DNA of 64,000 nt from a virus. The notes beneath the pieces are model-generated. The model was not told the origin of the DNA. It was given only the letters and a program-made list of their open reading frames with translations, and did no database searches. The position numbers and the translations under genes were made by a program. The stretch spans positions 62,001 to 126,000 of the IMG/VR virus record IMGVR_UViG_3300048694_001005; one strand, given 5' to 3'. How positions within the stretch are numbered: position 1 is the stretch's first letter; each line of letters begins with the position of its first letter. Shown here piece by piece: positions 2,062 to 49,791 of the stretch.

Positions 2062-2069
2062 ACCTACGT

Positions 2070-2099
2070 ATTATATAGATCTCAGTAGTACAAGATCAA
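2070..2099 (-). promoter_or_regulatory. Possible sigma70-like promoter of gp47
   Basis: On the minus strand TTGATC and TATAAT are separated by 18 nt in the short gp55-gp47 gap. The TATAAT ends only 8 nt before the gp47 ATG, leaving almost no leader, so the site may be fortuitous. Confidence 0.35.
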
Positions 2100-2104
2100 G
2101 TTTT

Positions 2105-2956: not shown

Positions 2957-3004
2957 TCAATAGGTTCTCCTTATATGTACTTAATACTAGCACATTTTAG
3001 CAAA

Positions 3005-3012
3005 AATAAATA
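3005..3012 (+). promoter_or_regulatory. T4-type late promoter -10 (AATAAATA) before gp48
   Basis: AATAAATA, one base from the T4 late consensus TATAAATA, lies 26 nt upstream of the gp48 ATG in the divergent gap after gp55. It probably drives the baseplate operon. Confidence 0.6.
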
Positions 3013-3038
3013 TATAAAACAAGGGTTTACTACAATTT

Positions 3039-8330: not shown

Positions 8331-10487
8331 ATGAGAGATAATGCAAAATTTAGTAGACCAGCTAGTTACAGTCAATCAGCAGCCGCGGCCAGTCAAAATT
8401 TAAGTCCAGGTCCCTATGTTGGCATTGTAAAACAAAATGCAGATCAACAGCGTATGGGAAGATTATGGGTGTGGTTGCCACTATTAAGCCCAGACGAAGA
8501 AGATCAAACTAAATGGGTATGCTGTTCATATGCTAGTCCATTTGCAGGCTTTACTAGACCACCTAATAATGATGGTACTGACAATTTTACAAATACAAAA
8601 CATGCCTACGGTATGTGGTTTATACCGCCAGACATTGGCGTAAAAGTGCTGGTAGTGTTTGCGGATGGTCAGTCAGACAAAGCATTTTGGATCAGCTGTA
8701 TTTTTGAAGGTCACAGTCATTACATGGTGCCGGGTCTGGGCGCAAGTATAAACAGCGACTTTAAAACAGGTCCCAGTACAACTATACCACAGGATCAGCG
8801 TCCTGATCGTGTGCCAGTGGTAGAATACAATGACAATAATCCCACATTAGACGGCAATCCAGCGTGGTTTAAAAACCCTAAACCCATGCATCAAACACAG
8901 GAACGGATTCTACAGGAACAGGGTCTAGACTTTGATTATTTGCGTGGTGCAATTTTGACGTCAAGTCAACGCGAAAGTCCTAGCCAAGTATTTGGTATTA
9001 GCACACCAGGTAGATTAATTGACGATGGCAAAACAGAAGGTTATAAAGTAAGACGCGGTGGTCATACTTTCGTAATGGATGATGGTGACAGTGTAGGTGA
9101 CAATAACTTTACAAGATTACGTACAGCGGGCGGGCATCAAATTTTAATGCACGACACTGGTGATTTTATGTACATCAGCAACAGCAAAGGCACAGCGTGG
9201 GTTGAAATAAATTCTGTTGGTGATATAGAAATATTCAGCAACGGTAATTTTAGCTTACGTGCAGCCACTAATATTAACCTTCATGCTGACGGTGACATCA
9301 ATATGTATGCAGGCAACAAGCTCAAAGTTGTGGCTGAAAGTGGCATGGACTTGCAAAGTAATTATATTAATTTGAACTCGGTAGAAGATACCACTATCCA
9401 TGCCTGTAAAGTTTTAAACCTTAAAAGTGGTGCGGCCAGCAACTTTGACGCTACCGGCAATTTTAGCATCAAGTCAGATGGTACATTATTCCTTAATGGT
9501 GGACCTACTATTAAGCTAAACTCTGGCGGTGCAAAAACAGTGACGCCACTTAATGACATCAAACGCAGTGGCTTTCCTAATGCTTTACGTAATTTAGACA
9601 GCTACAAGAGTGTAGCCAAACGTATAAACAGTATATCAACTAGAGTTCCTACACACGAACCTGACGTAGGTCATGCGGCTAAGGCAGATCAAGTGCGTAA
9701 TGCCGCTGCTATAAACATGGCTGATGACGCTATAGCTAATTTACCACCACAAGCTGGGCGTGTGCCTGCGCCCCCAGTCAGTGTTTTAACTGACAGCCAT
9801 GGTAATGCAATTTTAAGTGGAACTGGTGTGCCGGTAGCTACACCTAACGTCAGTGACAAGACGGATGCAGCGCCAAATATTACTGCACCCGTACCTAACA
9901 CACTAGCAAATTTGCCTAATGCTATTGATAAACAGCCAGATCCCAGTAGAGCAGTGGGAACGCTGACCAAAGACGAAACCAAAGCATTTATGACAACTAT
10001 TGGACAAGCAGAAAGCGGCGGCAACTATAACCTAATAGGCGGCATGGGAAATATAGGCAAATACCAAATGAGTGCATCTACTTTGGTAGATCAAAACTTT
10101 ATCAGTAAGGACCTGTTTCAAAAGTATGGCGGCAGTAATGCAGTAATGGATAATCCAGCAGCATGGACCGGCGTTGAAGCAGCAGCAACAGGCATAACCA
10201 GTAAAGCAGCGTTTTTAAATGCACCAGGTGTCCAGGAAAGTGTGATGCAGTCAGTGACGGAAACAAATTATACGGCACTTGTGAGTAATGGCGCTATACG
10301 TGCAACCGATAGCAGTGAAATTGCGGCGGGATCGTTAGCAGTGGCACATAAATTTGGCGCAGCCGGAGCATTTGCTACTCGTTACAGTGGTGGCACAACT
10401 GACGCTGCGGGTAATACCGGAAACACGTATTTTGCAATAGGTAAATACTCTATTAACAGCCTAACCAAGAATGGAAGCTTAGTATAA
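8331..10487 (+). CDS. 5: gp5-like baseplate hub spike with OB domain, beta-helix and C-terminal lytic transglycosylase
   Basis: Residues about 28-130 form the gp5/VgrG OB domain (GPYVGIVKQNADQQRMGRLWVWLP, then YGMWFIPPDIGVKVLVVFADG). Residues about 270-400 are short repeating strands (GDIEIFSNGNFSLRAATNINL type), as in gp5/VgrG spikes. A linker rich in Ala and Pro follows. Residues about 545-718 look like a lysozyme-fold transglycosylase: IGQAESGGNYN with E561 as candidate catalytic Glu, then GKYQMS. T4 gp5 has its lysozyme between OB and helix; here the enzyme is at the C-terminus and of a different type. It should form the trimeric membrane-piercing spike. The stop overlaps the gp25 start. 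Confidence 0.88.
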   Translation: MRDNAKFSRPASYSQSAAAASQNLSPGPYVGIVKQNADQQRMGRLWVWLPLLSPDEEDQTKWVCCSYASPFAGFTRPPNNDGTDNFTNTKHAYGMWFIPPDIGVKVLVVFADGQSDKAFWISCIFEGHSHYMVPGLGASINSDFKTGPSTTIPQDQRPDRVPVVEYNDNNPTLDGNPAWFKNPKPMHQTQERILQEQGLDFDYLRGAILTSSQRESPSQVFGISTPGRLIDDGKTEGYKVRRGGHTFVMDDGDSVGDNNFTRLRTAGGHQILMHDTGDFMYISNSKGTAWVEINSVGDIEIFSNGNFSLRAATNINLHADGDINMYAGNKLKVVAESGMDLQSNYINLNSVEDTTIHACKVLNLKSGAASNFDATGNFSIKSDGTLFLNGGPTIKLNSGGAKTVTPLNDIKRSGFPNALRNLDSYKSVAKRINSISTRVPTHEPDVGHAAKADQVRNAAAINMADDAIANLPPQAGRVPAPPVSVLTDSHGNAILSGTGVPVATPNVSDKTDAAPNITAPVPNTLANLPNAIDKQPDPSRAVGTLTKDETKAFMTTIGQAESGGNYNLIGGMGNIGKYQMSASTLVDQNFISKDLFQKYGGSNAVMDNPAAWTGVEAAATGITSKAAFLNAPGVQESVMQSVTETNYTALVSNGAIRATDSSEIAAGSLAVAHKFGAAGAFATRYSGGTTDAAGNTGNTYFAIGKYSINSLTKNGSLV

Positions 10488-10861
10488 TGGCAACATACAA
10501 AGGATTTGACACACAGAGCAACAGTCGCAGATTTAGACTAACTGACTTTGAGCTAATCAAACGTGATTTATTGAATCATTTTAATGTGCGTCGTGGCGAA
10601 AAACTTATGCGTCCAGGGTTTGGATGTAGTATTTGGACCTATTTGTTTGAACCCATGACGGAAACAACACGCCAACAAGTAATTGACGAAGTAAAAGCAG
10701 TGATTGACTATGATCCGAGAGTTAATGCTGACAAAATTACTATTACTAGCTATGAACAGGGTATACAAATTGAGTTAGAACTTAGTTTGGTGGGTACAAA
10801 TCAAACCTCCAACATGGTTTTACGCTTTGATCAGAATCAAAGCGCGGTATTAAGCTATTAA
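10487..10861 (+). CDS. 25: Baseplate wedge protein gp25
   Basis: At 124 aa it is close to T4 gp25 (132 aa). The family core is visible: RRGEKLMRPGFGCSIWTYLFEP, which includes the EKxxRPxFG signature, followed by helices with IDEVKAVIDYDPRV. gp25 links the wedge inner core to the sheath and is conserved in contractile systems. Its ATG overlaps the gp5 stop, and gp6 follows after a 45-bp gap with a late promoter. The assignment is secure. Confidence 0.95.
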   Translation: MATYKGFDTQSNSRRFRLTDFELIKRDLLNHFNVRRGEKLMRPGFGCSIWTYLFEPMTETTRQQVIDEVKAVIDYDPRVNADKITITSYEQGIQIELELSLVGTNQTSNMVLRFDQNQSAVLSY

Positions 10862-10906: not shown

Positions 10907-13900
10907 ATGGCGCTAACAACACGACAAACCAACTTACTAGTAGCTGAGGACTGGACCAAAGTATATCAAAGTTTCAGAAATGCTGATTTCCAGGCCTACG
11001 ACTACGAAACTTTGCGTAAAAGCATGATTGACTATCTGCGCCTATACTATCCCGAAGATTTTAACGATTTTATAGAAAGCAGCGAATATATTGCGCTTAT
11101 AGACCTAATAGCATTTCTGGGTCAAAGTATTGCATTCCGCGCAGATCTAAACGCTCGTGAAAATTTCATAGACACAGCAGAACGTCGTGACAGCATATTG
11201 AGATTGGCTAAACTAGTAAGTTATGTGCCACAACGCAACATCAATGCTGTGGGTCTACTTAAAATTGACACAGTAAGTACTACAGAAGCACTTACAGATA
11301 GTGATGGCGTAGATCTAACTAATGCAAATATATACTGGAACGACAACACTAATGCAAACTGGTACGAGCAATTCGTAACTATAATAAATTCCGCACTAAT
11401 TTCCGGCCAAAGAATAGGTAATCCCGGCAATAGTCAATATCTAACTGGTATAAAAACCGATGAGTATGGCATCAACCTAGCAGCTGGCGGCAGCAACATT
11501 TACAAGTTTAAAAGCACAGTGCAGGGCGTGAGTATGAGTTTTGAGGCAGTAAGCGGCACAAGCATAGGACAAAACTACATATACGAAAGCAGCCCGGCCT
11601 ATAGTTCAGTGTTTAACTTAATTGCTCGTAATGATAACTTAGGCAACGCAAGTAATAACACTGGATTCTTTGTTATGTTCAAACAGGGAACACTACAAAG
11701 CGATACTTTCAACTTAGCAGAAAGCTTGTCAAACAGAGTTTTGTCTGTAAGCTCAGACAATATAAACAATACAGATTACTGGTTATACCAATTAAGTAAC
11801 AGTGGTAATCCCATTACAGAGTGGTTACCAGTGCCCAGTGTAAACGGCACAAACATAGCTTACAATCAAGTTAATGCTACAAATAGAGACATTTTTGAAG
11901 TAGGCACCCGCGCCAATGATCAAGTTGATTTAATTTTTGGTGATGGCACTTTTGCAAATATACCGCAGGGAAACTTCACATTCTATTACAGAACTAGTAA
12001 TAATTTAGACTACAGAATTACTCCTGCCGAAGTAAACAACATTCAAATCAATATTCCCTATACCAGTAAGAGCAACAGGTCTGAAACGTTAACCTTAACC
12101 GTAAGCTTAAAATACACGGTAAGTAATGCTCGTGCTCGTGAAACATTGGCCAGTATTAAAACTAATGCTCCGCAGCAGTACTACACACAAAATCGTATGG
12201 TGAATGGTGAAGACTATAACATTCTGCCATTTACCAAGTTTAGTAATTTAGTAAAAGTCAAAGCTGTAAACAGAACCAGTAGCGGAATTAGTAGATTCTT
12301 AGATGTATTAGATACTACCGGCAAGTACAGCAGCACAAACATATTTTGTCAGGATGGTATTTTGTCCAAAGCTGACACCTTCAAGACTTTTACCTTTGAA
12401 TGGACTACTGTTAGTGACGTTCAACAGGCCATAGAAACTAAGATATTGCCAGTAATAGAAAGTCAAAGCATGAAGAATTTCTATTACTACTATTTTAACA
12501 GATACGCACTTACAAATACTTTTTGGACCGCAGTTACCTTGGGCAATAACAGTTCTACTGGATATTTCCAATCAGGAGGTATACCATGGCAAATAGGTAA
12601 TACTGTAACTGGCAGCAGAGCGCAACTAATACCAGGCGCTATTATTAAATTTTATGCAGGATCTGGCAAGTACTTTGACGCCAATCATGTTATTCAAAAT
12701 GGTACTCCCAGTGCAGAAAATGAATCTCAATACTTGTATAGTGCAGTTCGCACTGTTGACAAGGACGGAACATATACCACTGAGGAATTGAACACTTATG
12801 GCGTAGGTCCTGTGGCATTGAGCGACATTGTGCCTTCAGATGCAGAAGCCGTGGAAGTCATATCTGATTTTGCGGATTCTCTGACTAGTGCCGTACGTCA
12901 AAGTATTGTGGACAATGTTGAACAAAATAAAAACTTTGGCCTGGGTTATGATACTACCGATCATATTTGGTATGTAATTACAGCAGCTAATCTGAACACC
13001 GCCGAAACGTTCAGCGAAACTTACCGAATGGACACAACTAACAGCCATCTTGATAATAGTTGGATTTTAACTTTTACAACCAGTGGTACTAGTCATGTTT
13101 ATACGGTCAAATATCGTGGTATGGACTATTACTTTGAAAGCGAATTAGAAACTAGGTTCTATTTTGATAAAACCCAACGCAGCTATGATGCCAAAGTGGG
13201 TACAGTGGTTAAAGACAATATCAAAATACTAAAAGTAAATAACAAACCAGATTCTAGTTTACCGCTGGTTACCCCGGTCACTGTAGAAATCAATGATAAT
13301 GTAATTGGTCAAGATGGTTATGTTAATAATGAAATAGTCAAAGTTACATTTGCCGATCCTGATAATGATGGTCTCCCAAATAATCCAGATTTCTTTCAAA
13401 CCATTGTTGATCCAACAACAAATCCTGACAGTAAAAAAGTCTACTACGAAATTTTAGCTTCGGGCGATTATGCACCCATAGCTTCTACTGACATAGTATT
13501 AACCTATGCAACATTAGCAGCTATACAGGCTAACAAAACCAAATATGTAGATGGCACACTGTTTTATGCTAGTACTGATGACAAATTTTATACTCTAAGC
13601 GTAAACGGTTCAGTTCGCACCGTGTCGCAAGTTACCAATTATGCTTACAGAACTGGCAGACAAAACATTTATTTTCAATATAGACACAATAGTCCAAACA
13701 ACAGACGTATTGACCCTGCCCCAAACAATATAATTGATCTTTATTTGTTGACGAAAACTTATAGCGATGATTATTATGCGTGGTTAGCCGATGTAACTGG
13801 TTCGGTAATGGAACCAGAAGAACCCAGTAGTGAAGATTTGCGACTGAACTTTCAGGAATTAGAAAGCTATAAAATGATTAGTGACACCATCATTTACAAT

Positions 13901-14281
13901 ACTGCGAAGTTTAGACCTTTGTTTGGTACTAAAGCAGAAACAGCATTACAGGCCAAATTTAAAATAGTTAAAAACCCTATTACTAATATCAGTGACACTG
14001 AAATTAAAAGCCGTGTGTTGACTGCGTTGAATACGTATTTTAGCATAGACAACTGGGATTTCGGTGAGACTTTTTATTTTACTGAACTCAGCGCCTATCT
14101 GCACACTAGTTTAGCGACATATATCAGTAGTGTGATATTAGTGCCACAAGATGTGAATCAACAGTTTGGTGACTTATTCCAAGTAAATGCTAACATAGAT
14201 GAGATCTTTGTAAATTCAGCAACTGCTGCTGATATTGAAATTATTTCTGCAATTACAGCAGCGCAACTTAATCAGGTTTAG
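10907..14281 (+). CDS. 6: Baseplate wedge protein gp6-like (enlarged)
   Basis: The N-terminus has the gp6/baseplate J-like features: RNADFQAYDYETLRKSMIDYL, then DFNDFIESSEYIALIDLIAFLGQSIAFRADLNARENF and RDSILRLAKLVSYVP. The C-terminal part (about 1010-1124) has the ELESYKMISDTIIYNTAKFRPLFG segment and a terminal beta-helical region. At 1,124 aa it is far longer than T4 gp6 (660). The extra 450 or so residues in the middle (about 500-950) are beta-rich, low-similarity sequence. gp6 dimers form the ring connecting the six wedges. The gene follows gp25, as in T4-like aquatic phages, and is separated by 2 bp from the giant gene. Confidence 0.9.
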   Translation: MALTTRQTNLLVAEDWTKVYQSFRNADFQAYDYETLRKSMIDYLRLYYPEDFNDFIESSEYIALIDLIAFLGQSIAFRADLNARENFIDTAERRDSILRLAKLVSYVPQRNINAVGLLKIDTVSTTEALTDSDGVDLTNANIYWNDNTNANWYEQFVTIINSALISGQRIGNPGNSQYLTGIKTDEYGINLAAGGSNIYKFKSTVQGVSMSFEAVSGTSIGQNYIYESSPAYSSVFNLIARNDNLGNASNNTGFFVMFKQGTLQSDTFNLAESLSNRVLSVSSDNINNTDYWLYQLSNSGNPITEWLPVPSVNGTNIAYNQVNATNRDIFEVGTRANDQVDLIFGDGTFANIPQGNFTFYYRTSNNLDYRITPAEVNNIQINIPYTSKSNRSETLTLTVSLKYTVSNARARETLASIKTNAPQQYYTQNRMVNGEDYNILPFTKFSNLVKVKAVNRTSSGISRFLDVLDTTGKYSSTNIFCQDGILSKADTFKTFTFEWTTVSDVQQAIETKILPVIESQSMKNFYYYYFNRYALTNTFWTAVTLGNNSSTGYFQSGGIPWQIGNTVTGSRAQLIPGAIIKFYAGSGKYFDANHVIQNGTPSAENESQYLYSAVRTVDKDGTYTTEELNTYGVGPVALSDIVPSDAEAVEVISDFADSLTSAVRQSIVDNVEQNKNFGLGYDTTDHIWYVITAANLNTAETFSETYRMDTTNSHLDNSWILTFTTSGTSHVYTVKYRGMDYYFESELETRFYFDKTQRSYDAKVGTVVKDNIKILKVNNKPDSSLPLVTPVTVEINDNVIGQDGYVNNEIVKVTFADPDNDGLPNNPDFFQTIVDPTTNPDSKKVYYEILASGDYAPIASTDIVLTYATLAAIQANKTKYVDGTLFYASTDDKFYTLSVNGSVRTVSQVTNYAYRTGRQNIYFQYRHNSPNNRRIDPAPNNIIDLYLLTKTYSDDYYAWLADVTGSVMEPEEPSSEDLRLNFQELESYKMISDTIIYNTAKFRPLFGTKAETALQAKFKIVKNPITNISDTEIKSRVLTALNTYFSIDNWDFGETFYFTELSAYLHTSLATYISSVILVPQDVNQQFGDLFQVNANIDEIFVNSATAADIEIISAITAAQLNQV

Positions 14282-14283
14282 AG

Positions 14284-17200
14284 ATGCCAATTAGAACATT
14301 AAATTTGCTACCAAAAGTCTTTCAAACAGACCACAACAAGAAGTTTTTAAACGCAACGTTGGATCAGTTAACGACTGAACCTAATTTTGCACGTTTGAAT
14401 GGGTATGTAGGTAAAAAAACTAGTCCGGCATTTATTCCTACAGACAATTATGTAATAGAGCCTGCGCTTAATAGACAGCAATATCAATTAGAGCCCAGTG
14501 TTGTGGTTAAAGAACCCAACAAGGATGCATTCATAGCCAACTACAATGACATGGTCAATGCTGTCAATTTTGCTGGCGGTGATAATATTGATCATAATAA
14601 ATTATTCGCAAACAAATACTACAGTTATGATGGTTTATTTGATTTTGATAAGTTAGTAAACTACAATCAATATTATTGGTTACCAAATGGTTTGGATCCT
14701 GTTGTAGTAAGCACAGGTGACATCGCCACAGCAGCACAGTATACCATAACTAGAGATTCTGTGGATGATGCTTATAAAATCACCGACTATGTCCAGCTAA
14801 ATCCATTGTTGGTATTGGCACGAGGCGGTACATACACTTTTACAGTTAACCAAACATCGCAGTTTTATATTCAAGCTGCACCTGGAACTGCGGGCGAATA
14901 CCCATTCCAAACTAATATTAGCGCAAGAGAAGTATACGGAGTTACTAACAATGGCGCAGATAATGGCACCGTGACATTTGTAGTGCCGCAACGTAGTGCA
15001 CAGGACTGGATACTGGATTTGCCAGAGCAGGACAGTGTTAACTATGCAACTACACTAAATTATGCACAAATCCAGGGCGCAAATTTTGACAGTTTCATTA
15101 ATACCTATGGCGGTATAGATGGAGTAAAAGATCTCAATAACAAAGTAATCGTATTTGTTAACCCCAGTAGCAATGATGCTGATTGGTATGATCCTTATAC
15201 CGATTCAATTATACCAACGGCAAAAAGAGCAAACACTTTCATTGTTAGAGTAGATACAACAGGCTCGGCGCCAACATTGCGTGTAGAGGAATATATTCTA
15301 GTTGGTGCAAACTATAAATTTAAAGTTTTGGGCGGAAATGATTATGGTTATAGATATTTCTATAAAGAACCGGTGCATCTACAACTTGAACTATTGCCAC
15401 CAGTTACAGCAAATATAGATACACTGTACTATCAGGACAGCACCAACACAAACATGTTGGGTCTTATCAAACTAATTGATACGCAAATTGATACGCCTAT
15501 CAATGTAGATACTGACATCGTTGGGCAAAAGAATTACACTAGCCCAAATAATGTTGTGTTCACAAACGGATTACGTGTGCAATTTGACACTACAGCAACT
15601 CCACCCAGTTATCAACTAAAAGAATATTATGTGGAGGGCGTGGGAGATGCAATACGTTTGGTTCCAGTCTCTGAATTAATTGTGCCGGAAACTTGGATTC
15701 CCAGTGCTGCGGTGCCCTGGGATAGTAATAAATGGGATAGCCAGCCCTGGGATCCTAATGTTAGTTTAGGACCCACACAACCAGATTACTTTACCATTAA
15801 TAGAGCTAGCCGTGATAGAAACTCATGGAGCAGAACCAACCGTTGGTTCCACATTGATGTTATTAATGCAGTAGCCGAATATAATAATTACACGCCAACT
15901 ATTGATAAAAATGCTAATGCAAAACGACCCATTATAGAATTTAACTATGATGTTCAACTTTACAATAGTGGCAGTGTATTCAAACAAGCGATAAATGCAT
16001 TTGATACGGTAACTACGGATGCATTTAGTCATGTTGAGGGCAGCAGTGGATACGCCATAGATGGCATAACATTGACCAATGGTATGTTCGTAGTTTTTGC
16101 GGCCGAGACTGATGAAAATGTAAGAAACAAAGTGTATAAGGTAAACATTGTTGATCCCAGTGGTGATGGCAGCTCTATTACACATTTAACCCTAGTTGAA
16201 CATGCTCAAGTATTAGCAAAAGAAGGGCTATTAGTACGTCAAGGCACAAACTATCAAGGAAAAATGGTTTGGTTCGATGGCACGGCCTGGCACACGGCAC
16301 AACAAAAGTTAGGAGTCAATCAGTCGCCATTGTTTGATGTATTTGACGACAGCGGAATAAGCTACAGTGATACTAGTAAATATCCTTCAACCACATTTGC
16401 CGGCAATAAGATATTCAGCTATAGGCCTGGTAATGGCAAAAACGACATTAATTTAGGATTGGCACTAACTTATAAGTCTATTGCAAATATTGGTGACATA
16501 GTTTTTGATAACAATCTTGACGCAGAAAGTTTTGCGTATACCTTAGATAATACAGTAAAAACCATACAACTATTTGATGGCAAACTACATGTAAACAATT
16601 CTTTGACCAACTACACGCAAAAAACAGTTTGGACACCGGTCTTTGAGGACAGTAAACAGTTCCAGCATTTGGAATATCTAGCTGAACAAGGACAAACAGA
16701 ATTTTTAGTGTATAGTTTTGGCGATCCCAGTAATTATGTAAACAACTTTAAACTTTTTGTCAACAACAAGTTTGTTAACTCAGATAATTATGTATTTGAA
16801 ACTATTCATGACAGAGCTTATATAATTCTAACCAGTGCTCTTAGTTTGAACGACAAAGTAGATATTTTTGTTTACGCAAGTACACAAACAATACCAAATG
16901 CCTATTACGAAATTCCTAAAAACTTAGAAGTAAATGCGTTAAATGCAGTGGCATCAACATTTACACTGGGACAACTACGTAGACATATTGGACAAATCTA
17001 TCAAAACAGTAAACAAGTAACAGGTTCGTATCTTGGCAGCAGTAATTTACGTGACTTGCCTAAAATTAAAGACATAGGTGGTACCTTACTGCAACACAGT
17101 GCAAGTGTTGTACCGGCTGCGCTATTCATGACGCATCCGGACGCTAACCTAATTGACGCCATAAACAATGCTGCTAGAGAATATACCCGCTTTAAGAATA

Positions 17201-20200
17201 AGGTACTGGACCAAGCATTAAAATTGGACCTGACAAAATCTTTAACTGTGCCACAAATGTTGGATGAAATATTGGGCACAATAAACGCGGTTAAAACCAA
17301 GGACTTTGCATGGTATTATAGTGATATGCTGGCTTATGGTGAGGACAGCGTTGAGAATGTAACGACGATCACAATTGAAAATGATGCGCAGTTAGAATAT
17401 GACCTATATACTAAATTTGACTTAACACAGCCCAGTCGGCGTGGAGTTTGTGTTTATGTTAATGACAATCAATTAGTACATGGAATTGACTATACGTTTT
17501 TAACAATTAGACCTGCGATAGCATTGACGGCCGGTACTATTGCAACGTATGATGTCCTCAAAATTGTCGAATATAATACAACTAACGGCTCATATATACC
17601 AGAAACTCCAACTAAACTAGGACTATGGCCCAGCAAGAGCCCAAGATTATACACCGATGACACATTTGTTACGGAAACTCTATGCATTGAAGGTCATGAT
17701 GGTAGTATTATACCTGCATTTGGTGATTTCCGCGATGACATTTTGTTAGAATTTGAAAAACGTATCTATAACAATTTAAAAGTACAGTGGAATTTAAACA
17801 AGTTATCAGTATTTGACGTAAAATCTGGTGCTTTCAGAACAACTGATTACAGCAGAGATCAATACAACAATATACTGTCGCAATTTTTCAATGCCTGGGC
17901 CAGCAAATATGGGCTAGATTACACTACCAACGACACATTCTTAAGTAACAACAGTTTTACATGGAATTATAAGAAGCTAAGTGATCGTGTGTTTGGAGAA
18001 CTATTACAGGGTGGTTGGCGCGCAATATTTGATCATTTCTATGATACCATGCGTCCACATACGCATCCTTGGGAAATGTTGGGTTTTGATCAAAAACCCA
18101 GCTGGTGGCAACAGCGTTATGGCGCCGCACCCTATACAAGTGGTAACTTAGTTTTGTGGGAAGATTTGCGCGATGGCAGAATATTTACTGGCGATCGTGC
18201 TGGCATAGATGCAAGATTTGCAAGACCAGATCTGCTAGATATTATACCCACGGATGAATATGGTGAATTAAGACCGCCAGTTGAAATTTTTGTTAAAGCA
18301 TTTGACAGCAGAAAAACAAAAATAAGTTGGGCATTTGGTGACATTGGCCCAGTAGAAGCTGCATGGCGTCGCAGTAGTGAATTTGCATTTGCTAGCCAAG
18401 CGGCTATGTCCGTTGCTAAACCCGCAAAATACTTTGGACTGTTTATTGATAACGACAAATACTTGTATGATGCCGCTATTAATGAATTCACATTTAATGG
18501 TTTGAACCGACGTTTACAGGTTTCTGACTACGTATTGAATAGTGAAACTGTAGATACTGAAATTGTATCCAAGGCCAGTTACCTTAATTGGATTATAGAT
18601 AGACTAAACGGCCAAGGTGTCAATGGCGTTGATAGAATAAGATCTTTGATCGACAATTTAACAGTAAATTTAACCTATGCATTTGCTGGATATACTGGCC
18701 CAGCAATGTTGAATTCTTTTGCAGAACAGGCCAGCCCTAACAGTGTGGGTAAAAGTATTTTAGTGCCGGAAGAGAATCAGTCAATAGTAATTAAAAAATC
18801 TGTGCCCTTATTGAAAATTGTTTATAGTGCAGTAATTATAGAGCGTACAGGAACTGGATTTAAAGTACAGGGTTACGATATAGCTGAACCTTATTTTACT
18901 ATTATACCTAGCCTGGCTAATAGCAACAGCACTACAATAACGGTTATGGGCAATACTGCTACGGTTTACAACGACTATGATGCAGTAAAAACTACAATTC
19001 CTTATGGCACAGAGTTTGTTAACAAACAACAAGTCGTAGATTTCCTAATCAGCTACAACAGATATTTGGTTTCGCAAGGCATACGTTTTAATGAATACGA
19101 AGGTGACTTGGGTGCAAATAGAGACTTTATACTATCGGCCCAAGAATTTTTAAACTGGAGCCAACAGGGTTGGGATAGTCAAACCGTAATAGTATTAAAC
19201 CCATTGGCTAATAAAGTATTTTTGACTAGGCCCGGATATGTAGTGGATGAAATAAACGGCAGTCAAGTAGGCGCCAGCCGTGTGTTAGATCAGAACTTTA
19301 ACTACCTACGTGATGATCAGTTTAATGTAGTACGCATCAACAACAGTTTTACAATAAATGCTGTCAATAGCAATTTGGCCTTAGTTGAAATGAATTTAGT
19401 TCAATATGAACATGCCATTGTTTACGATAACAGGACGATTTTTAATGACGTTATTTACGAACCAGAAACTGGTAATAGACAGTTACGCATCAAACTGGTA
19501 GGATACAAAACTAGAGAGTGGGACGGTTCAGTTTATGCGCCGGGATTTATTTACAACAGTACAAATGTTGACGCATGGACTGCTGGTGTTGACTACAAAG
19601 CTGGTGCGTTGGTAGAATATAAGAATCAATATTATACTGCACTAATGGATGTAGCAGCAGAGAATGTGTTTGAGTTTAATAAGTGGCAGATAATAGACAA
19701 AAATAAGATAAAGACGGGATTGCTGCCTAATTTCAGCAATCTAGCTGGTCGTAGTGAACGCTTTTATGACATAACAAATGCTAACTTTGAAAGTAGTATA
19801 GACCTATACAGTAAAGGTTTAATAGGATTTAGACCGCGCAGTTACTTAACGGAGCTGGGCATTGATGACATTAGCCAAGTGAAGTTTTACCAAGGATATA
19901 TTAGAGAAAAAGGTACCAACAGCGCATTGAATGCGTTGTTAGGCGCAAAGTTTGATAGATTTACTACCGAGATAGATGCTTATGAGAACTGGGCTATTAG
20001 AGTTGGAGAATTTGGTGCAATAGACAGCACTCAGGTATTGGAACTTGTTCTAACAGAAAATAATTTTGCGGCTAATCCCAGTTTCCTATCATTATTAAAT
20101 GATGGTGATACTGCTGAATCTGGGACAACAGGTTACAGCCCAAATGCGGTTGGTGATGGTAAGATTGTAATTGTTCCTAAGAATTACACCAAGAATCTGT

Positions 20201-23200
20201 TTTTAACAACTACGGACAAGTTAAACGTCGAGGAAGAATTACTTACGGCTGGCTATTTGAAAACAACACATGCCGATACTTTCATATTTGATCTTACTAA
20301 TATCAACGCCGATAGCCCCGCTACATTAATAGATCCTATTGGGTCTGGGCACAAAATTTGGGTAGCAAAAAAGAACAATAAGGACTGGACACTACTTAGA
20401 GCAGAACAAACGCAAGTTCAAGTTATTAACATAACTAATGCGTTAGACAACACATTGGCAGTAAAAACAAGCGATAGGCACAATCTTGCTATAAACGATT
20501 ACATTGTTATTAAGAACTTTGACATAAACTTTAACTTTATCTATCGCGTCAAAGAAATACTAGATCTTAAAACCTTCAAAGTTGATGCTAATACAACATT
20601 AACTTCTAATCTTTCTGGGTTCAACAGTTTAGATGGTACTGGTGTCTTGTACAAGTTAAGTACTGTTCGTTTCAACACAGTCTCTGACTGGGCTGCATAC
20701 ACCCCAAGAGAAGGTTGGCAAACTGATGATGTCGCAGCCATAGATCACTGGGGACCAAACTATGTGGACTGGGCAGTATTTAAGAAACGCGATATCTGGA
20801 GCAAAAATCAAACGTTAGATGCTTGGGATGCTAGCACCAATCAAAACTACGGTTCTAGTGTTGCCTTCGTGAACACGGGTGATTATATGCTTGTGGGTGC
20901 ACCAGCAGAAGGCACCGGTAAAGTTTTTGTTTACATCAAAGATAGTAATGGCCAATATCAACATTTAACATCTATTACACAAAGCACAGCCAACTTGTCC
21001 GGCTTTGGTACGACATTAACCGGCAGCAATGCAGATTATTTTGCAGTAGGTTGCCCAACCAGTGACACTAACACTGGATTTGTTTACATATACAAGATCA
21101 ACACTAGTTTAGGAACAGTGTCTTTGGTGGGTTCTGTAAAGACCGGACCCAGCACAGGTTCTTATTTAGGACAAAGTTTAAGCTTTAGTAAAGATGGCCT
21201 ATGGCTATATGTGGGCGCACCCGGTGTTAACCGAGTTTATATTTGGGGGCGTAGCTCAACAACATTTTATCAGGTTGGAACGTATATAACACCTGCTGAT
21301 ATAGGTGCTGGCGATCAATTTGGTTACAGCGTAAGTTGTAGCACCGATGGCGCACAAGTCTTAGTTGGTGCACCATTTAATGACACTGGTAGCACAGACG
21401 CCGGTGCGGTCTACATTTATGATAGAAGCATAGAATCATTTGTGGGAGATGGATCCACTACTGTTTACACTTTATTGCGCAGCCCTGATACCAATATCAA
21501 ACTGTCAACGGTTGAGGGTGTAGTTCAAACAGGCGAGACTTACACTGGCAGCGGTAACAAAACAGTTACATTCTCAACAGCGCCCGGTAACGGTAGTTTG
21601 ATAAAAATTGCTTCAAACAATTTCCAATTGTTAAAGAAATTAACCACACCCGTCACACAGTCGCAACAGCAGTTTGGCACTAGTACCGTATTATGTCCTT
21701 TTGATTGTACCGCTTATGTAGGTGCACCTTTAGTCGACAGCGCCAATAGCGTACAAAATGCTGGTGCTGTGTACAGATATACCAACATGGGACGTTTGTA
21801 TGGTAAAGCAACGGGAACAGTTACTAACCCAGCAGTAACCATAGGTCATGGTATACGAATAAATGACTTTGACGTTGTGTTTACAGGCACAAGTTTAACC
21901 AGCGTGGTCAACGATATTAACAATAAAGCTATTCCAGGTATTGGGGCCAGCGCAGTTAATAATCAATTGTATATTGAATGCGATATTGTTTTAGTGGCAG
22001 ACAAGTTAAGAATATTGCCAGGATCAGGAACTGCACTAACAGATCTTGGATTAGACGTATTTAAAAATACTCAAACTATAAGTAATCCTAATCCTATCGC
22101 TGATGATCAGTTTGGTACAGTTTTGGCTATAAGTGATGATGCGTTGAAGTTGGCGATTGGCAGTGCATTGGAAACATCTATAGAAACTACTAGCTTTGAC
22201 GGCAACACTACAACATTTGATTTAGGTAGTTTAAAGTTCGTTGATCAAGTTGGTCAAAGTGGTGCAGTGCTGGTGTACGAATATGTCAGCGATAGAATTG
22301 ATAATGACAGCTCTCCAGGTTCTTTTATATTAGATCGTTATTTAGAACCGGGCAATCTGCAGTTAGCTAATAAATTTGGCAGCAGTGTGGCTATGAATGG
22401 CAGTTATATCGCAGTAGGTGCAATAGGCGACGACAAGTTTGGCAGTAATTATGGTGCCATGTATGTGTTCGCAGCAGCTAAATCCACGGCATGGTATGTA
22501 GATGGACAAGCTGTGCCCCGGGTCAACACCGACGCAATTAATAGGCTGTTCCTATATGACAGCGTTACACATACTAAACTAGTTGATCTAGAACTAATCG
22601 ACCCAGTCAAAGTCAAAGTACCAGGTAATGCTATAAGTCAAATAGATTTTGTAGAAGATTTAGATCCTGCCGTATATGGAGATACCGCAGCTAGTATCAA
22701 TGAAATCTGGGGCAGTATGCAAGTGGGCAAGGTATGGTGGAATACCGACAAAGTTCGTTACTTAGACTATGAGCAGGGAGATTTTCAGTATCGCAGCACA
22801 CATTGGGGCGATACTTTCCCTGGCAGCGAAATTGAAATCTGTGAGTGGACACGCAGTTCAGTGCTACCTAGCTCATATGTGGCTGTGAATGGCAATAACT
22901 TTGACGGCTATCCAGTATTTGGTGATGCGCGAGTAGTAACTGAAACAAGAACTGATGCAGCAACTGGTTTAACAATGACCAATTACTACTATTGGGTACG
23001 CAGGAAAACTACGGTTAATACTAATAGTGGCAGAACTCTTACTATTTCTGCAGTTGAAGATTTAATAACAGACCCCAAAGCTCAAGGACTAGCCTATGCT
23101 GTGGTGTTGTCAAATAACAGCATTGGTCTCTACAATACAGCAACATATCTAAATGCAAGCAATACCTTGCTACATGTGGACTATGATGTACAACTTAACA

Positions 23201-26200
23201 CCGACGTTATACATGCAGAATACGACCTAGTACAGGAAAATAACCCACGCAGCCGCCCAGCAGACTCCCTGCTGAGCAAATTAATTGATAGTTTGTCTGG
23301 GCAAGATGCCATGGGTAAAGAAGTGCCGGATACTAATCTGTATGGTACATTAAAATACGGAATAGAGAACAGGCCACGTCAGGGAATGTTTGTTAATCGT
23401 TTGACGGCATTGAAAGTCATGCTGTTAAAGGTAAATGAGATCTTTAGTTCATACAAACTGGTAGAAATATATGACACAGATAGGCTCAAAATAGCTGAAC
23501 CTGCACCTAGTGCAGTAAGTGGGGCATGGGACGAGTCTGTGGCAAACTTAACTGAACTAAGTTACATCAATACCTCAACATTAACTCCTGGTTATAAAGT
23601 TCTGGTGGAAAATGACAGCAACTATTACAACGGTTGGTCAATCCATACCTACAGCGGGGGATGGTCGGTAACCAGTCATCAGTCTTACAATTTAAATAGA
23701 TTCTGGCAATATGTTGACTATGTGGCCAGCAGTTACGATGCATCCAAGCTGCCTAAATACACTGTAGAAAACAAATATGATCTGCTTAAAAATCAATATG
23801 TGTTGAATGACACAGTAAAGATCATGGACAATGGATCCGGCAGATACGAGATCATCAAATATGTAAACGATGACACTGGTAATCTAATTACTGAAACCCT
23901 AGTTTTAGAAAACGGTACAGTAAACTTTACCAATGAACTTTATACTCAAGCTTTAGTAAATGACGGCAGTACACTAAGCCAAACTTACAGTAAAGAGCTG
24001 CGTAATTTGTTTGAACTTTTGTTTAACGATCTATTCACAAATGAATTGGAAAAACATGTAAACGAATTGTTCTTTGTGGCTATACGATATATTCTACGCG
24101 AGCAGAAGAATGTGGATTGGCTGTTTAAGACCAGCTTAATAGACATCAAACACTACTTTAGAAAGCTGGAACAGCAAAGTGTTTATTTGAAAGACAATCA
24201 AACATTCTTACTAGATTACATTACAGAAACCAAACCCTATCATACCAAAATACGTGAATACTTAATCAACTATACCGGATTAGATGATTGGGCTGGAGAT
24301 CCTTCTGACTTTGATTTGCCTGCTTATTATGACGGTGATTTATCTGTATTTAGAAGTCCCAGCGGAGAAAAATCCACAGATGCTAACAAACTAGAAACAG
24401 ATTTGCATTATAGAATGTGGAATCTTAACCATGGGTATGGTGTTGATAGTGTAATGATAGAAAACGCAGGTGTGAATTACCTTGTAGCACCAGATATCAA
24501 TATCATTGCTGCGACGGGAGACACGGGTAGTGGTGCCAAAGCTTATGCATTGGTAAGCGGTGGCAAATTACGTGAAATTATTGTGACAGATCCTGGCAAA
24601 AATTATACAAAGACACCTACTGTAGAAGTTGTTGCAAATGATTCGGGCACTAGCGGCAAACTATATGCTCAGTTGGGTAACAAAACCATTAGGAAATGGA
24701 ACACTACAATACGCTTTGATCGTTATACCTATGGCACCGCAGTTCTTACTTGGGCAGCAAGTACATATTATCTGCAGGGTCAATACATAGCACACAATCA
24801 TGTTTTATATAAAGTAGAAGTAGCTGACGGTAGCAGTGCAGGCTTTACCAGTAGCACAACTTTTGACACCGATAACTTGGTGAAAATTTCCAATCAAGAT
24901 TTGGCTGCTTTGATGGATGGCGACTTTGGCAGTGCTAATGACAGGATAACTGCATACTACCAGCCTCGTGATGGCATGCCGGGACAGGATCTCGCTCAGG
25001 TACAAACTGGTATTGATTATCCTGGCGTAATAGTGGATGCACAAAACTTTACCGATTTGCCAACCAACTATCCTACAATTGCCAGCGGATTAGATGACAC
25101 AGTTATTACTAGCCAGTTTACAGATACTGATCTAGGCACTAGGGCAGAGGATATTCTAGTTGATGGTAAAGCATTTATAGACGTTTACTCTAGCCATGCA
25201 CCACAAGAATTAATTCCCGGTAGAATGTATGACACTCTGAATATGCAAGTGCATACAGTGCCGCGTACTGATTACAATTACATAATAAAAACGTGGGCAG
25301 CTTATAGCTATTACGCCAAAGGTGATTACATAAAATACGGTACACAGTTATATCAAGCTCTGTTTGCATATACAACTGGTGCTGCATTTTCAATATATGG
25401 GCCAGATGGCAGCACTATTGCATTAACAGCTCGCGATCCATTAACTGCTGGGGCCGGACCAGAAATAACTAACCTAAGCTTTACTGCTGACGGAACTACT
25501 ACCCAGTTCAGTTTCCGTGAAGTTGGACACAGTGATGATGTATTGTTTGTGTATACAAAAAATCGCGGATTACAAAAAGAGAACACAGATTTTACAGTTA
25601 ACTACAATGATAAATCAATCAATTTTGCTATCGCACCATTAGCTAACGAAACAGTGTTTATATCGGTACAAAGTCATGGTGGTAACTTCTTGTTGTATGA
25701 TAAGACTTACCAAATTCTAGCAGCTACAACACAAATAATTCTGCCAACTTATGATAACTTGGTACAGGATCTACTAGTTTTTGTTAACGGTCAACGTGTA
25801 TTTGAAGGCACAGCATCAAATCAGTTTACACATGCGGTAAGCAACAATCTGTACAATATACAGTTTAACACGGCATTGGTGTCTGGTGACTATGTGCATG
25901 TTTATGTCTATAGTCAACCACAAACCTATAGAGAAATACACAATACATACCAGAGTTTTGACACGCTACCATCAGTTAGCTATCCAACTGACTATACAAT
26001 AACCTTAGACAGACCACTGAAAACCAGTGGGCCCTATCATGCCAATATTATAGTGTTAGTTAATAATAACAGACTGCGTACACCAGAAAATACCTATCTG
26101 ACCGGCGATGGCAGCACTATAACATTTACGCCCAACTATGTAGCAGACATCAATGGTGCCACGGTGGACGGAAACGACATAGAAGTATATGTAAATGGAC

Positions 26201-27345
26201 AGCGTAAAACTTTTGGTGCCGATTATACATTGACCGCGCTAGACGGCAGTACCTTACGTTCTGTTATTTTTAATACTGCACCTGCCATGGGCGATGTTGT
26301 GGTGTTAAGTGAGACAACAGGTGCACAATTTAGTATGATAGATGCGCAAACTATATTGATAGCAGCTAGTGTGGCGTTGACTGTAAATAGTAAAGTTCGC
26401 ATTATTAGCTATGCAGATCATGACACCAGTTTAATTAAGACTAAAGTATATTCCGGCGCCGGCGCAGCTACAATCAGTATACCACACGGGTTCGATACAA
26501 TAGGATTTGATAGTGAGGATTCAGGATTCGATTCATCCTCTTCCTTGATCATCACTACCAACAAATATCCATTGCAATACACGCATACTAACACAAATTA
26601 TGTGCTAGTTTATCAAAACGGACAGTTTTTGCAGCCCAACACAGATTGGGATTTGGCTGATAGCGGTTCGCAAGTTGAAATTCATAGAAACATTAGTGCA
26701 AGTGACATAATCATAATCACAGAATTTACTGAAAACAGTCAGGGCGGTCTAACCAGCTTTAGGATCTTTAAGAACTTACTGGATCAAACTAATTACTATG
26801 CTATCAACTATTCTGACAGTACTAAATTGTCAGCTGATTTGGGTATTTTTGACACAGAAATCAGTGTGCAAAATGCCCTAGCATTGCCCGCACCCAGCAC
26901 TGCCTATGCTAAACCCGGTGTTATATTCATAAATGGAGAACGCATAGCTTATTGGGAACGCGACACAGTAAACAACAAGCTGGGACGTATTATACGTGCC
27001 ACCGGTGGTACTGGTGCGCCTCAAGTACATGCTGCGGGGTCAGATTTGGTTAGTGCAGGCAAAAACCAGGAAATTACTAGCCTATACGACAACAGTATTG
27101 TAGCAAAATGGCAACCGCTTACTCAGTTTAAACAGGATACCTACGTATTATTTGAGGGCAGCATTTATCAAGTTACCACTACTTTCACTAGTGGAGCCTC
27201 ATTTACAACAGCCAATTTAACTTATCGTGCGCAATTTAGAGATATGGTATGGTATGATATGAATAACAAAACCTTGAGTTTAGTGGAAGCAGATACTACT
27301 CAAGCAGTATTTTTAAGACAAAAAGCGGGCTTTATTCCAACATAA
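14284..27345 (+). CDS. Giant virion structural protein, probable baseplate-wedge component in gp7 position
   Basis: This single uninterrupted ORF of 4,353 aa fills a fifth of the window. The start (LNLLPKVFQTDHNKKFLNATLDQL) is a pattern I recall from large structural proteins after gp6 in aquatic T4-like phages. Residues about 2185-2735 contain seven repeats of the form FG-x-S-(9-12)-VGAP-(n)-VY-x-Y, read as a seven-bladed FG-GAP-like beta-propeller with insertions after blades four and five. The region about 3700-4200 has repeated strand modules of the VxVNGQ type. In T4 the gene after gp6 is gp7, the wedge initiator; I infer an equivalent position, but size and domains differ greatly, so a fibre-anchoring or host-contact role is also possible. 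Virion localisation is likely, the exact role open. Confidence 0.7.
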   Translation: MPIRTLNLLPKVFQTDHNKKFLNATLDQLTTEPNFARLNGYVGKKTSPAFIPTDNYVIEPALNRQQYQLEPSVVVKEPNKDAFIANYNDMVNAVNFAGGDNIDHNKLFANKYYSYDGLFDFDKLVNYNQYYWLPNGLDPVVVSTGDIATAAQYTITRDSVDDAYKITDYVQLNPLLVLARGGTYTFTVNQTSQFYIQAAPGTAGEYPFQTNISAREVYGVTNNGADNGTVTFVVPQRSAQDWILDLPEQDSVNYATTLNYAQIQGANFDSFINTYGGIDGVKDLNNKVIVFVNPSSNDADWYDPYTDSIIPTAKRANTFIVRVDTTGSAPTLRVEEYILVGANYKFKVLGGNDYGYRYFYKEPVHLQLELLPPVTANIDTLYYQDSTNTNMLGLIKLIDTQIDTPINVDTDIVGQKNYTSPNNVVFTNGLRVQFDTTATPPSYQLKEYYVEGVGDAIRLVPVSELIVPETWIPSAAVPWDSNKWDSQPWDPNVSLGPTQPDYFTINRASRDRNSWSRTNRWFHIDVINAVAEYNNYTPTIDKNANAKRPIIEFNYDVQLYNSGSVFKQAINAFDTVTTDAFSHVEGSSGYAIDGITLTNGMFVVFAAETDENVRNKVYKVNIVDPSGDGSSITHLTLVEHAQVLAKEGLLVRQGTNYQGKMVWFDGTAWHTAQQKLGVNQSPLFDVFDDSGISYSDTSKYPSTTFAGNKIFSYRPGNGKNDINLGLALTYKSIANIGDIVFDNNLDAESFAYTLDNTVKTIQLFDGKLHVNNSLTNYTQKTVWTPVFEDSKQFQHLEYLAEQGQTEFLVYSFGDPSNYVNNFKLFVNNKFVNSDNYVFETIHDRAYIILTSALSLNDKVDIFVYASTQTIPNAYYEIPKNLEVNALNAVASTFTLGQLRRHIGQIYQNSKQVTGSYLGSSNLRDLPKIKDIGGTLLQHSASVVPAALFMTHPDANLIDAINNAAREYTRFKNKVLDQALKLDLTKSLTVPQMLDEILGTINAVKTKDFAWYYSDMLAYGEDSVENVTTITIENDAQLEYDLYTKFDLTQPSRRGVCVYVNDNQLVHGIDYTFLTIRPAIALTAGTIATYDVLKIVEYNTTNGSYIPETPTKLGLWPSKSPRLYTDDTFVTETLCIEGHDGSIIPAFGDFRDDILLEFEKRIYNNLKVQWNLNKLSVFDVKSGAFRTTDYSRDQYNNILSQFFNAWASKYGLDYTTNDTFLSNNSFTWNYKKLSDRVFGELLQGGWRAIFDHFYDTMRPHTHPWEMLGFDQKPSWWQQRYGAAPYTSGNLVLWEDLRDGRIFTGDRAGIDARFARPDLLDIIPTDEYGELRPPVEIFVKAFDSRKTKISWAFGDIGPVEAAWRRSSEFAFASQAAMSVAKPAKYFGLFIDNDKYLYDAAINEFTFNGLNRRLQVSDYVLNSETVDTEIVSKASYLNWIIDRLNGQGVNGVDRIRSLIDNLTVNLTYAFAGYTGPAMLNSFAEQASPNSVGKSILVPEENQSIVIKKSVPLLKIVYSAVIIERTGTGFKVQGYDIAEPYFTIIPSLANSNSTTITVMGNTATVYNDYDAVKTTIPYGTEFVNKQQVVDFLISYNRYLVSQGIRFNEYEGDLGANRDFILSAQEFLNWSQQGWDSQTVIVLNPLANKVFLTRPGYVVDEINGSQVGASRVLDQNFNYLRDDQFNVVRINNSFTINAVNSNLALVEMNLVQYEHAIVYDNRTIFNDVIYEPETGNRQLRIKLVGYKTREWDGSVYAPGFIYNSTNVDAWTAGVDYKAGALVEYKNQYYTALMDVAAENVFEFNKWQIIDKNKIKTGLLPNFSNLAGRSERFYDITNANFESSIDLYSKGLIGFRPRSYLTELGIDDISQVKFYQGYIREKGTNSALNALLGAKFDRFTTEIDAYENWAIRVGEFGAIDSTQVLELVLTENNFAANPSFLSLLNDGDTAESGTTGYSPNAVGDGKIVIVPKNYTKNLFLTTTDKLNVEEELLTAGYLKTTHADTFIFDLTNINADSPATLIDPIGSGHKIWVAKKNNKDWTLLRAEQTQVQVINITNALDNTLAVKTSDRHNLAINDYIVIKNFDINFNFIYRVKEILDLKTFKVDANTTLTSNLSGFNSLDGTGVLYKLSTVRFNTVSDWAAYTPREGWQTDDVAAIDHWGPNYVDWAVFKKRDIWSKNQTLDAWDASTNQNYGSSVAFVNTGDYMLVGAPAEGTGKVFVYIKDSNGQYQHLTSITQSTANLSGFGTTLTGSNADYFAVGCPTSDTNTGFVYIYKINTSLGTVSLVGSVKTGPSTGSYLGQSLSFSKDGLWLYVGAPGVNRVYIWGRSSTTFYQVGTYITPADIGAGDQFGYSVSCSTDGAQVLVGAPFNDTGSTDAGAVYIYDRSIESFVGDGSTTVYTLLRSPDTNIKLSTVEGVVQTGETYTGSGNKTVTFSTAPGNGSLIKIASNNFQLLKKLTTPVTQSQQQFGTSTVLCPFDCTAYVGAPLVDSANSVQNAGAVYRYTNMGRLYGKATGTVTNPAVTIGHGIRINDFDVVFTGTSLTSVVNDINNKAIPGIGASAVNNQLYIECDIVLVADKLRILPGSGTALTDLGLDVFKNTQTISNPNPIADDQFGTVLAISDDALKLAIGSALETSIETTSFDGNTTTFDLGSLKFVDQVGQSGAVLVYEYVSDRIDNDSSPGSFILDRYLEPGNLQLANKFGSSVAMNGSYIAVGAIGDDKFGSNYGAMYVFAAAKSTAWYVDGQAVPRVNTDAINRLFLYDSVTHTKLVDLELIDPVKVKVPGNAISQIDFVEDLDPAVYGDTAASINEIWGSMQVGKVWWNTDKVRYLDYEQGDFQYRSTHWGDTFPGSEIEICEWTRSSVLPSSYVAVNGNNFDGYPVFGDARVVTETRTDAATGLTMTNYYYWVRRKTTVNTNSGRTLTISAVEDLITDPKAQGLAYAVVLSNNSIGLYNTATYLNASNTLLHVDYDVQLNTDVIHAEYDLVQENNPRSRPADSLLSKLIDSLSGQDAMGKEVPDTNLYGTLKYGIENRPRQGMFVNRLTALKVMLLKVNEIFSSYKLVEIYDTDRLKIAEPAPSAVSGAWDESVANLTELSYINTSTLTPGYKVLVENDSNYYNGWSIHTYSGGWSVTSHQSYNLNRFWQYVDYVASSYDASKLPKYTVENKYDLLKNQYVLNDTVKIMDNGSGRYEIIKYVNDDTGNLITETLVLENGTVNFTNELYTQALVNDGSTLSQTYSKELRNLFELLFNDLFTNELEKHVNELFFVAIRYILREQKNVDWLFKTSLIDIKHYFRKLEQQSVYLKDNQTFLLDYITETKPYHTKIREYLINYTGLDDWAGDPSDFDLPAYYDGDLSVFRSPSGEKSTDANKLETDLHYRMWNLNHGYGVDSVMIENAGVNYLVAPDINIIAATGDTGSGAKAYALVSGGKLREIIVTDPGKNYTKTPTVEVVANDSGTSGKLYAQLGNKTIRKWNTTIRFDRYTYGTAVLTWAASTYYLQGQYIAHNHVLYKVEVADGSSAGFTSSTTFDTDNLVKISNQDLAALMDGDFGSANDRITAYYQPRDGMPGQDLAQVQTGIDYPGVIVDAQNFTDLPTNYPTIASGLDDTVITSQFTDTDLGTRAEDILVDGKAFIDVYSSHAPQELIPGRMYDTLNMQVHTVPRTDYNYIIKTWAAYSYYAKGDYIKYGTQLYQALFAYTTGAAFSIYGPDGSTIALTARDPLTAGAGPEITNLSFTADGTTTQFSFREVGHSDDVLFVYTKNRGLQKENTDFTVNYNDKSINFAIAPLANETVFISVQSHGGNFLLYDKTYQILAATTQIILPTYDNLVQDLLVFVNGQRVFEGTASNQFTHAVSNNLYNIQFNTALVSGDYVHVYVYSQPQTYREIHNTYQSFDTLPSVSYPTDYTITLDRPLKTSGPYHANIIVLVNNNRLRTPENTYLTGDGSTITFTPNYVADINGATVDGNDIEVYVNGQRKTFGADYTLTALDGSTLRSVIFNTAPAMGDVVVLSETTGAQFSMIDAQTILIAASVALTVNSKVRIISYADHDTSLIKTKVYSGAGAATISIPHGFDTIGFDSEDSGFDSSSSLIITTNKYPLQYTHTNTNYVLVYQNGQFLQPNTDWDLADSGSQVEIHRNISASDIIIITEFTENSQGGLTSFRIFKNLLDQTNYYAINYSDSTKLSADLGIFDTEISVQNALALPAPSTAYAKPGVIFINGERIAYWERDTVNNKLGRIIRATGGTGAPQVHAAGSDLVSAGKNQEITSLYDNSIVAKWQPLTQFKQDTYVLFEGSIYQVTTTFTSGASFTTANLTYRAQFRDMVWYDMNNKTLSLVEADTTQAVFLRQKAGFIPT

Positions 27346-28021: not shown

Positions 28022-28783
28022 ATGAATTACATAGATAAGATTATAGGAATTGCGCATCTGGGCAAATATACCAAGTGGTACTGCTCAATAATATCAAAAG
28101 CGCAAAGTAGAGCAAAAACTCGAAAAGCAGCAAAAAAATTGCTTGGTTATACAGAACGCCACCACATTCTTCCCAAGTCTTTCAAATTGGGCGGAGAAAA
28201 GGATAAAATGAATTATGCATACTTGTCTGCAGACGAGCATTTTTTGTGCCATTTATTATTGACAAAAATGTTTGATGGTGAGTTCAAAATTAAAATGTGT
28301 TTTGCATTGCATTCTATGCGTAGGATTTTGGGGCGCAATGGAAAACTTAAACTAACAAGTTGGGAATATAAAAAACTTAAAGAAGCCAATGCTTATGCAA
28401 GGAGCAAATCATCAAGTGGGATGAAAGGTAAAAAACATCGACCTGATTCAATTGAAAAAATGCGTGAAAATGCATATATGGGATTACTTGGTAAACCGGC
28501 ATGGAATCGAGGAAAAAAAGAAGCTGTAGAAAAAAAGAAAAAGAGAATGGAATCTCTTAAAAAATATAGGGAAGGACATCCTGAATGGAAGGAACAACTT
28601 CGAGACGCCAGCCGCATAGGAGAGCCCAATAGACTTTTGGCGATACAAAAACGAACACAGGTTGATGGAAGAATATATGAATCCGCGACAAAAGCGGCCG
28701 CAGCCCTTGGCCTTAAAAAAATAACGCTTATTAAGCGGGTGTTAAGTAAAAATTTTCCCGAATATAAGTACATAGAGGAATAA
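28022..28783 (+). CDS. HNH homing endonuclease with NUMOD-type DNA-binding motifs
   Basis: The 253-aa product is very basic and unlike its structural neighbours. Residues about 44-54 carry TERHHILPKSF, followed by YLSADEHFLCHLLLTKMF, the pattern of phage HNH/intron-type nucleases (H47-H48 and H80 as likely metal or catalytic residues). Residues about 130-150 (SGMKGKKHRPDSIEKMREN) look like a NUMOD3 module. Residues about 214-250 (GRIYESATKAAAALG...) look like a NUMOD1/helix-turn-helix. It is inserted 2 bp after the small structural gene and 3 bp before a fibre gene, so neither neighbour is interrupted. It is read as a free-standing mobile endonuclease. Confidence 0.88.
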   Translation: MNYIDKIIGIAHLGKYTKWYCSIISKAQSRAKTRKAAKKLLGYTERHHILPKSFKLGGEKDKMNYAYLSADEHFLCHLLLTKMFDGEFKIKMCFALHSMRRILGRNGKLKLTSWEYKKLKEANAYARSKSSSGMKGKKHRPDSIEKMRENAYMGLLGKPAWNRGKKEAVEKKKKRMESLKKYREGHPEWKEQLRDASRIGEPNRLLAIQKRTQVDGRIYESATKAAAALGLKKITLIKRVLSKNFPEYKYIEE

Positions 28784-49765: not shown

Positions 49766-49791
49766 TTGTTATTAACGTGAGGAACACAATT

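Follow-up and report, generated by a model that had tools for sequence, protein, structure and literature searches.

Directly downstream of a gp6-like baseplate wedge gene, a single reading frame encodes a 4,353-aa giant of the phrog_10938 family of baseplate-associated structural proteins, and within its scaffold sits a domain predicted to be a seven-bladed FG-GAP (integrin-type) β-propeller. The window analysed here is a stretch of 64,000 nucleotides, bases 62001–126000 of a 180,565-base virus record from an uncultured tailed phage of large size, and the giant occupies positions 14284–27345 (+) of it. A contig that lacks exactly the propeller places it in the turn of a short hairpin, and we regard the domain as an inserted, removable one whose most likely role is that of an accessory adhesin on the periphery of the baseplate, a reading to which we give an even chance of being correct. 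A giant baseplate family that had been unexplained thereby gains a domain map, an exact insertion point and a natural propeller-free relative as control.

The giant gene and its scaffold

The initial annotation had described a 13-kb ORF of 4,353 aa following gp6, and this is borne out: the gene opens with ATG, contains no internal stops, and lies immediately 3′ of the gp6-like wedge gene at 10907–14281 (+; phrog_10646, 6e-291; phrog_219, 1e-17). The order upstream is a gp5-like hub/lysozyme protein, a gp25-like wedge protein (10487–10861, +; phrog_261, 8e-20; phrog_43, 5e-16) and the gp6-like protein, while downstream a short conserved protein (phrog_11259) and a homing endonuclease (28022–28783, +; phrog_655, 2e-31) precede a series of fibre genes. 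Three other genes of the window may be recorded here. A 1,358-aa virion-type protein (4251–8327, +) carries an endolysin-like stretch at residues ~647–867 (phrog_7, 7e-19); a 700-aa ORF amid tail genes (39739–41841, +) gives two methyltransferase matches (phrog_8156 and phrog_24759); and the tail sheath protein (49777–53013, +; phrog_10581, 1e-226), at 1,078 aa, is larger than the 97-kDa sheaths of RaK2 and phAPEC6 (PMC3622015, PMC7247149).

Comparison of the giant with the phrog_10938 profile gives E = 0 and 1111.7 bits over four stretches. The family includes PA5oct gp355, RaK2 ORF070, CBB gp236, phAPEC6 gp245, Atu_ph07 gp180, an SCTP-2 protein and others, and in PA5oct, RaK2, Atu_ph07, CBB and phAPEC6 its gene is directly 3′ of an annotated gp6/wedge gene. 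Mass spectrometry has found CBB_236, whose locus is that of the after-gp6 member, in the virion with 21 peptides (PMC5259590), and likewise phAPEC6 gp245, whose locus we confirmed, as a 382-kDa protein with 17 unique peptides (PMC7247149); a remark in the sequence record of PA5oct gp355 calls it a virion protein by ESI-MS/MS. Since family members are virion proteins, there is good support for assigning the scaffold of the giant to the baseplate-type structural proteins, with the virion detection coming from members without a propeller match, and the earlier claim of a structural protein in the wedge region agrees with this assignment. Indeed, because tblastn finds no propeller match in the virion-detected giants of CBB, phAPEC6 and PA5oct, the wedge scaffold does not need the propeller.

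Four conserved blocks define this scaffold, all on the + strand. The N-terminal block NT (14284–14763, residues 1–160) has a mean pairwise identity of 64% over 23 sequences and is present in the RaK2, PA5oct, Atu_ph07 and SCTP-2 members; the middle block MID follows at 17581–19572 (residues 1100–1763), the block POST, after the propeller, at 22516–22998 (residues 2745–2905), and the partly helical block HEL at 23776–24273 (residues 3165–3330), where the model of contig L042 described below has two long helices. The four relatives checked (PA5oct, RaK2, Atu_ph07 and SCTP-2) share NT, MID, POST and HEL with the window giant, but, unlike it, have no FG-GAP propeller between MID and POST. Directly after MID lies a CBM_5_12-like module (19573–19713, +, residues ~1764–1810; Pfam PF02839, 4.2e-8, four stretches), with additional copies near residues 3490 and 3671 (motif positions). 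Against the PDB, a single-sequence search with the whole giant returned no direct match, a profile search with MID returned no match, and one with POST to HEL returned nothing but weak matches across a Gly-rich repeat. In three contigs (L033, L058 and L124) the giant is broken into at least two reading frames at differing sites, reflecting either sequencing error or real gene fission.

The propeller and its insertion site

The propeller spans 20800–22488 (+, residues ~2173–2735) and is recovered by Pfam, the family alignment, a PDB profile search, fold prediction and a regular expression. A simple blade expression fits six blades, at residues 2189, 2241, 2295, 2346, 2464 and 2698, all within 560 residues, whereas 500 shuffles of the giant averaged 0.08 matches and never exceeded 2; in blade 6 (~2610) the GAP element is degenerate (‘LAIGS’), and this blade was recognised from the family alignment. 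Pfam FG-GAP_2 matches the whole giant with E = 9.2e-26 and matches 17 of 17 members of the propeller alignment when each is run singly. The best PDB match of the alignment profile is integrin alpha-4 (4.6e-7), followed by other integrin alpha chains. AlphaFold2 run on the same alignment yields a model with a mean pLDDT of 75 and a pTM of 0.80, whose least confident stretches are mostly blade 6 and the module that follows blade 4, and in a Foldseek search of the PDB with this model ranks 1–37 are all integrin alpha (best E, 1.5e-14). The seven FG-GAP repeats that had been noted at about residues 2185–2735 are thus real, the integrin-like fold proposed for them is supported by prediction, and we regard the domain as a seven-bladed, integrin-like propeller on the strength of the model.

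The extra modules noted earlier after blades four and five are also present, in both the alignment and the model, as a β module of ~63 aa (21430–21618, +, residues 2383–2445) and an α/β module of ~98 aa (21790–22083, +, residues 2503–2600). Neither is found in the compact propellers of contig L032 and of the marine contigs L143 and L145, and the existence of such compact forms suggests that the looped-out modules are probably of secondary origin. In other relatives the blade loops hold additional insertions. The window propeller resembles that of integrin alpha in its seven FG-GAP blades, in sequence and in predicted fold alike, but differs from it in having modules looped out of its blades, in sitting inside a phage scaffold and in being without a β-subunit partner. 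It also differs in its loops: calcium-binding loops had been suggested as a feature to look for, and the pattern D.[DN].[DN]G does not occur between FG and GAP in the propeller, nor does a DxDxDG loop occur in the window protein, while in relatives such matches fall only 5′ of the propeller and not within it.

In every inspected contig with both flanks readable, the propeller lies between MID and POST. One contig, L042, is exactly without it: where the others carry the whole propeller, it reads ‘GWAVYT-YNGS-AWVRTRQQSPSVD’, with AWVRTRQ as the second flank. The corresponding segments of the window giant are DWAVFKK (20767–20787, +, residues 2162–2168), aligned to WAVYT, and AWYVDG (22489–22506, +, residues 2736–2741), aligned to AWVRTRQ. 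When this part of L042 is modelled with AlphaFold (pLDDT 78), WAVYT (strand 410–414) and AWVRTRQ (strand 419–424) form neighbouring strands with a four-residue turn between them. Since these strands are joined by so short a turn, the propeller interrupts a hairpin turn, and its exact absence from L042 marks it as an inserted cassette. The sequence at this site is uninterrupted in PA5oct and SCTP-2 as well, and a second scan for propeller-free relatives like L042 returned L042 alone. A further contig, L144, is propeller-free by HMM and Pfam yet contains one FG/VGLP stretch, and its status is therefore unsure.

A tblastn search of 50,697 phage records with the propeller found the S-TIM5 group only, and a profile-guided scan of viral contigs found at least 132 environmental stretches encoding propeller relatives. 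These sequences suggest that the propeller is common to many environmental relatives and apparently not in the cultured relatives examined. Contigs L046 and L148 carry other long insertions between MID and POST; these match Gp18 domain I weakly, and L148 also gives an E1_FCCH match. On the basis of these insertions, the region before POST seems generally open to domain insertion.

Gain, loss and conservation

In a tree built from the MID block, with the propeller columns left out, propeller presence requires three changes. Of the 58 diverse rows, 51 retain the propeller, a share that is inflated because the rows were partly collected with the propeller as query. Nearly all bearers fall in one clade (support 100/99), which also holds L144 and L042. 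The latter pairs with a propeller bearer (100/100), and this nested position argues that its propeller-free state is a loss. RaK2, PA5oct, Atu_ph07, SCTP-2 and L148 lie outside the bearer clade on long branches. As the tree has no real root, a single gain at the base of the bearer clade is the simplest reading, though unproved.

Between the giant and a near-identical relative there are 291 synonymous versus 43 non-synonymous codon differences, indicative of purifying selection on the gene, propeller included. The mean pairwise identity is 48% in the propeller, as compared with 61% in MID and 58% in each of POST and HEL; other variable parts, namely PRE and the C-terminus (50% each), are about as conserved as the propeller. 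Non-synonymous changes are most frequent in the propeller, at 1.56 per 100 codons, as compared with 1.27 in the C-terminal part and 0.64–0.85 in the scaffold on either side of the propeller, although the counts are small (9 in the propeller). The lower conservation of the propeller weakly supports its exposure at the surface.

Possible role of the propeller, and FG-GAP repeats in other phages

FG-GAP repeats occur in other phage settings too. In the cyanophage S-MbCM6, a 7,022-aa protein (L139:10780–31848) encoded directly after gp25 and gp6, and annotated gp8 (T4-GC_108), has FG-GAP repeats around residues 4440–4830, so that both this giant and that of the window stand after gp6 and contain such repeats; downstream of it, the annotation lists gp7 and a further gp8. 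Comparison of the S-MbCM6 giant with NT, MID, POST and HEL detected no homology outside FG-GAP and Gly-rich repeats, and its repeats were therefore probably acquired independently, which would mean that FG-GAP repeats probably entered phage tails more than once. The 407-aa gp54 of cyanophage S-TIM5 is, like the window domain, an FG-GAP propeller, and is annotated as a virion structural protein; it stands alone, whereas the window propeller is embedded in a giant.

In the explanation we favour, the phrog_10938 scaffold encoded after gp6 would have received the propeller in a short surface hairpin turn in this lineage, so that a removable domain would project from the surface. Placed at the baseplate periphery, the propeller may hold a host surface glycan or protein as an accessory adhesin, while tail-fibre adhesins would make the specific recognition. 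The clean loss in L042, the recurrence in an unrelated giant and in a free virion protein, and the CBM_5_12-like modules in the same chain together fit an accessory host-binding domain best and make host contact plausible. The window also encodes a 1,329-aa fibre-type protein (33248–37237, +) with a Gp38-like region (Pfam GP38, 4e-13, residues 79–292) and a C-terminal DUF7483 (4e-100), likely a specific adhesin of this phage, and primary host recognition may therefore lie there rather than in the propeller. Against adhesion stand the missing integrin-type calcium loop and the purifying selection on the propeller, which evolves no more quickly than the other variable regions of the giant.

Propellers often serve as platforms on which proteins dock, and the one in the giant could instead dock another virion protein, such as a tail fibre, an adhesin or a whisker, rather than bind the host. 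The fibre genes that come after the giant would suit such a platform, but fibre docking, raised in the initial annotation beside host contact, gains no specific support, RaK2 and CBB, which are without a propeller, still have baseplate fibres (PMC3622015, PMC5259590), and we consider docking quite unlikely. An insertion that fills space or lends stability, making the baseplate thicker but binding nothing, would be in keeping with the purifying selection throughout the giant, with the clean loss in L042 and with the other modules hosted by its loops, as neutral domain accretion predicts. Mere filler leaves unexplained, however, why FG-GAP repeats appear in an unrelated giant and in a stand-alone virion protein, and the retention of the propeller in 51 of 58 rows, inflated as that share is, also speaks against it; we judge this reading unlikely.

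That the giant fills the slot held in T4 by gp7 raises the question of whether it is an enlarged gp7, with the propeller as counterpart of a T4 gp7 domain. In hhalign comparisons with five T4-type gp7 proteins, residues 1080–1780, 2151–2760 and 2745–3500 each gave a probability of 0.1–0.4%, and a PDB fold search with the L042 segment, equivalent to residues ~1765–3340 only, gave no match at E < 1e-3 and no gp7 among its best 50. For the regions covered, which begin at residue 1080, sequence profiles and the central-region fold thus leave the gp7 identity unsupported, though a gp7-like core could lie in residues 1–1100. Considering also that S-MbCM6 has a giant in the same slot with gp7 annotated separately, we hold this identity to be very improbable.

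Propellers in phage baseplates have precedents. In phiKZ, the seven-bladed propeller gp131C lies on the periphery of the baseplate; in phi11, the baseplate propeller Gp45 has five blades and a cavity that might accommodate GlcNAc. For these a receptor-binding role is proposed or likely (PMC4901313); for the window propeller adhesion is inferred. Both are other proteins, and neither is on record as an FG-GAP domain inserted into a giant that follows gp6. The novelty first claimed for the propeller, as a surface not known from T4, was therefore framed too narrowly, since baseplate propellers are known from phiKZ and phi11 (PMC4901313) and a T4-like cyanophage has a giant with FG-GAP repeats; none of the open-licence papers searched reports a phage baseplate protein with an FG-GAP propeller.

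A broader and more doubtful proposal, which we put forward tentatively, is that several unrelated large myophage lineages may independently have taken integrin-type propellers into post-gp6 giants as exchangeable host-adhesion cassettes, the baseplate itself, and not the fibres alone, carrying a replaceable receptor-binding layer. Should the propeller bind hosts, large myophages would have in their baseplate scaffold a separate adhesion layer, evolving by domain insertion. Finally, Sinorhizobium phage Phosso encodes a second large protein (L138:5851–13200) in which numerous FG-GAP-like matches spread across more than 2,300 residues, located far from that phage's own phrog_10938-type giant.
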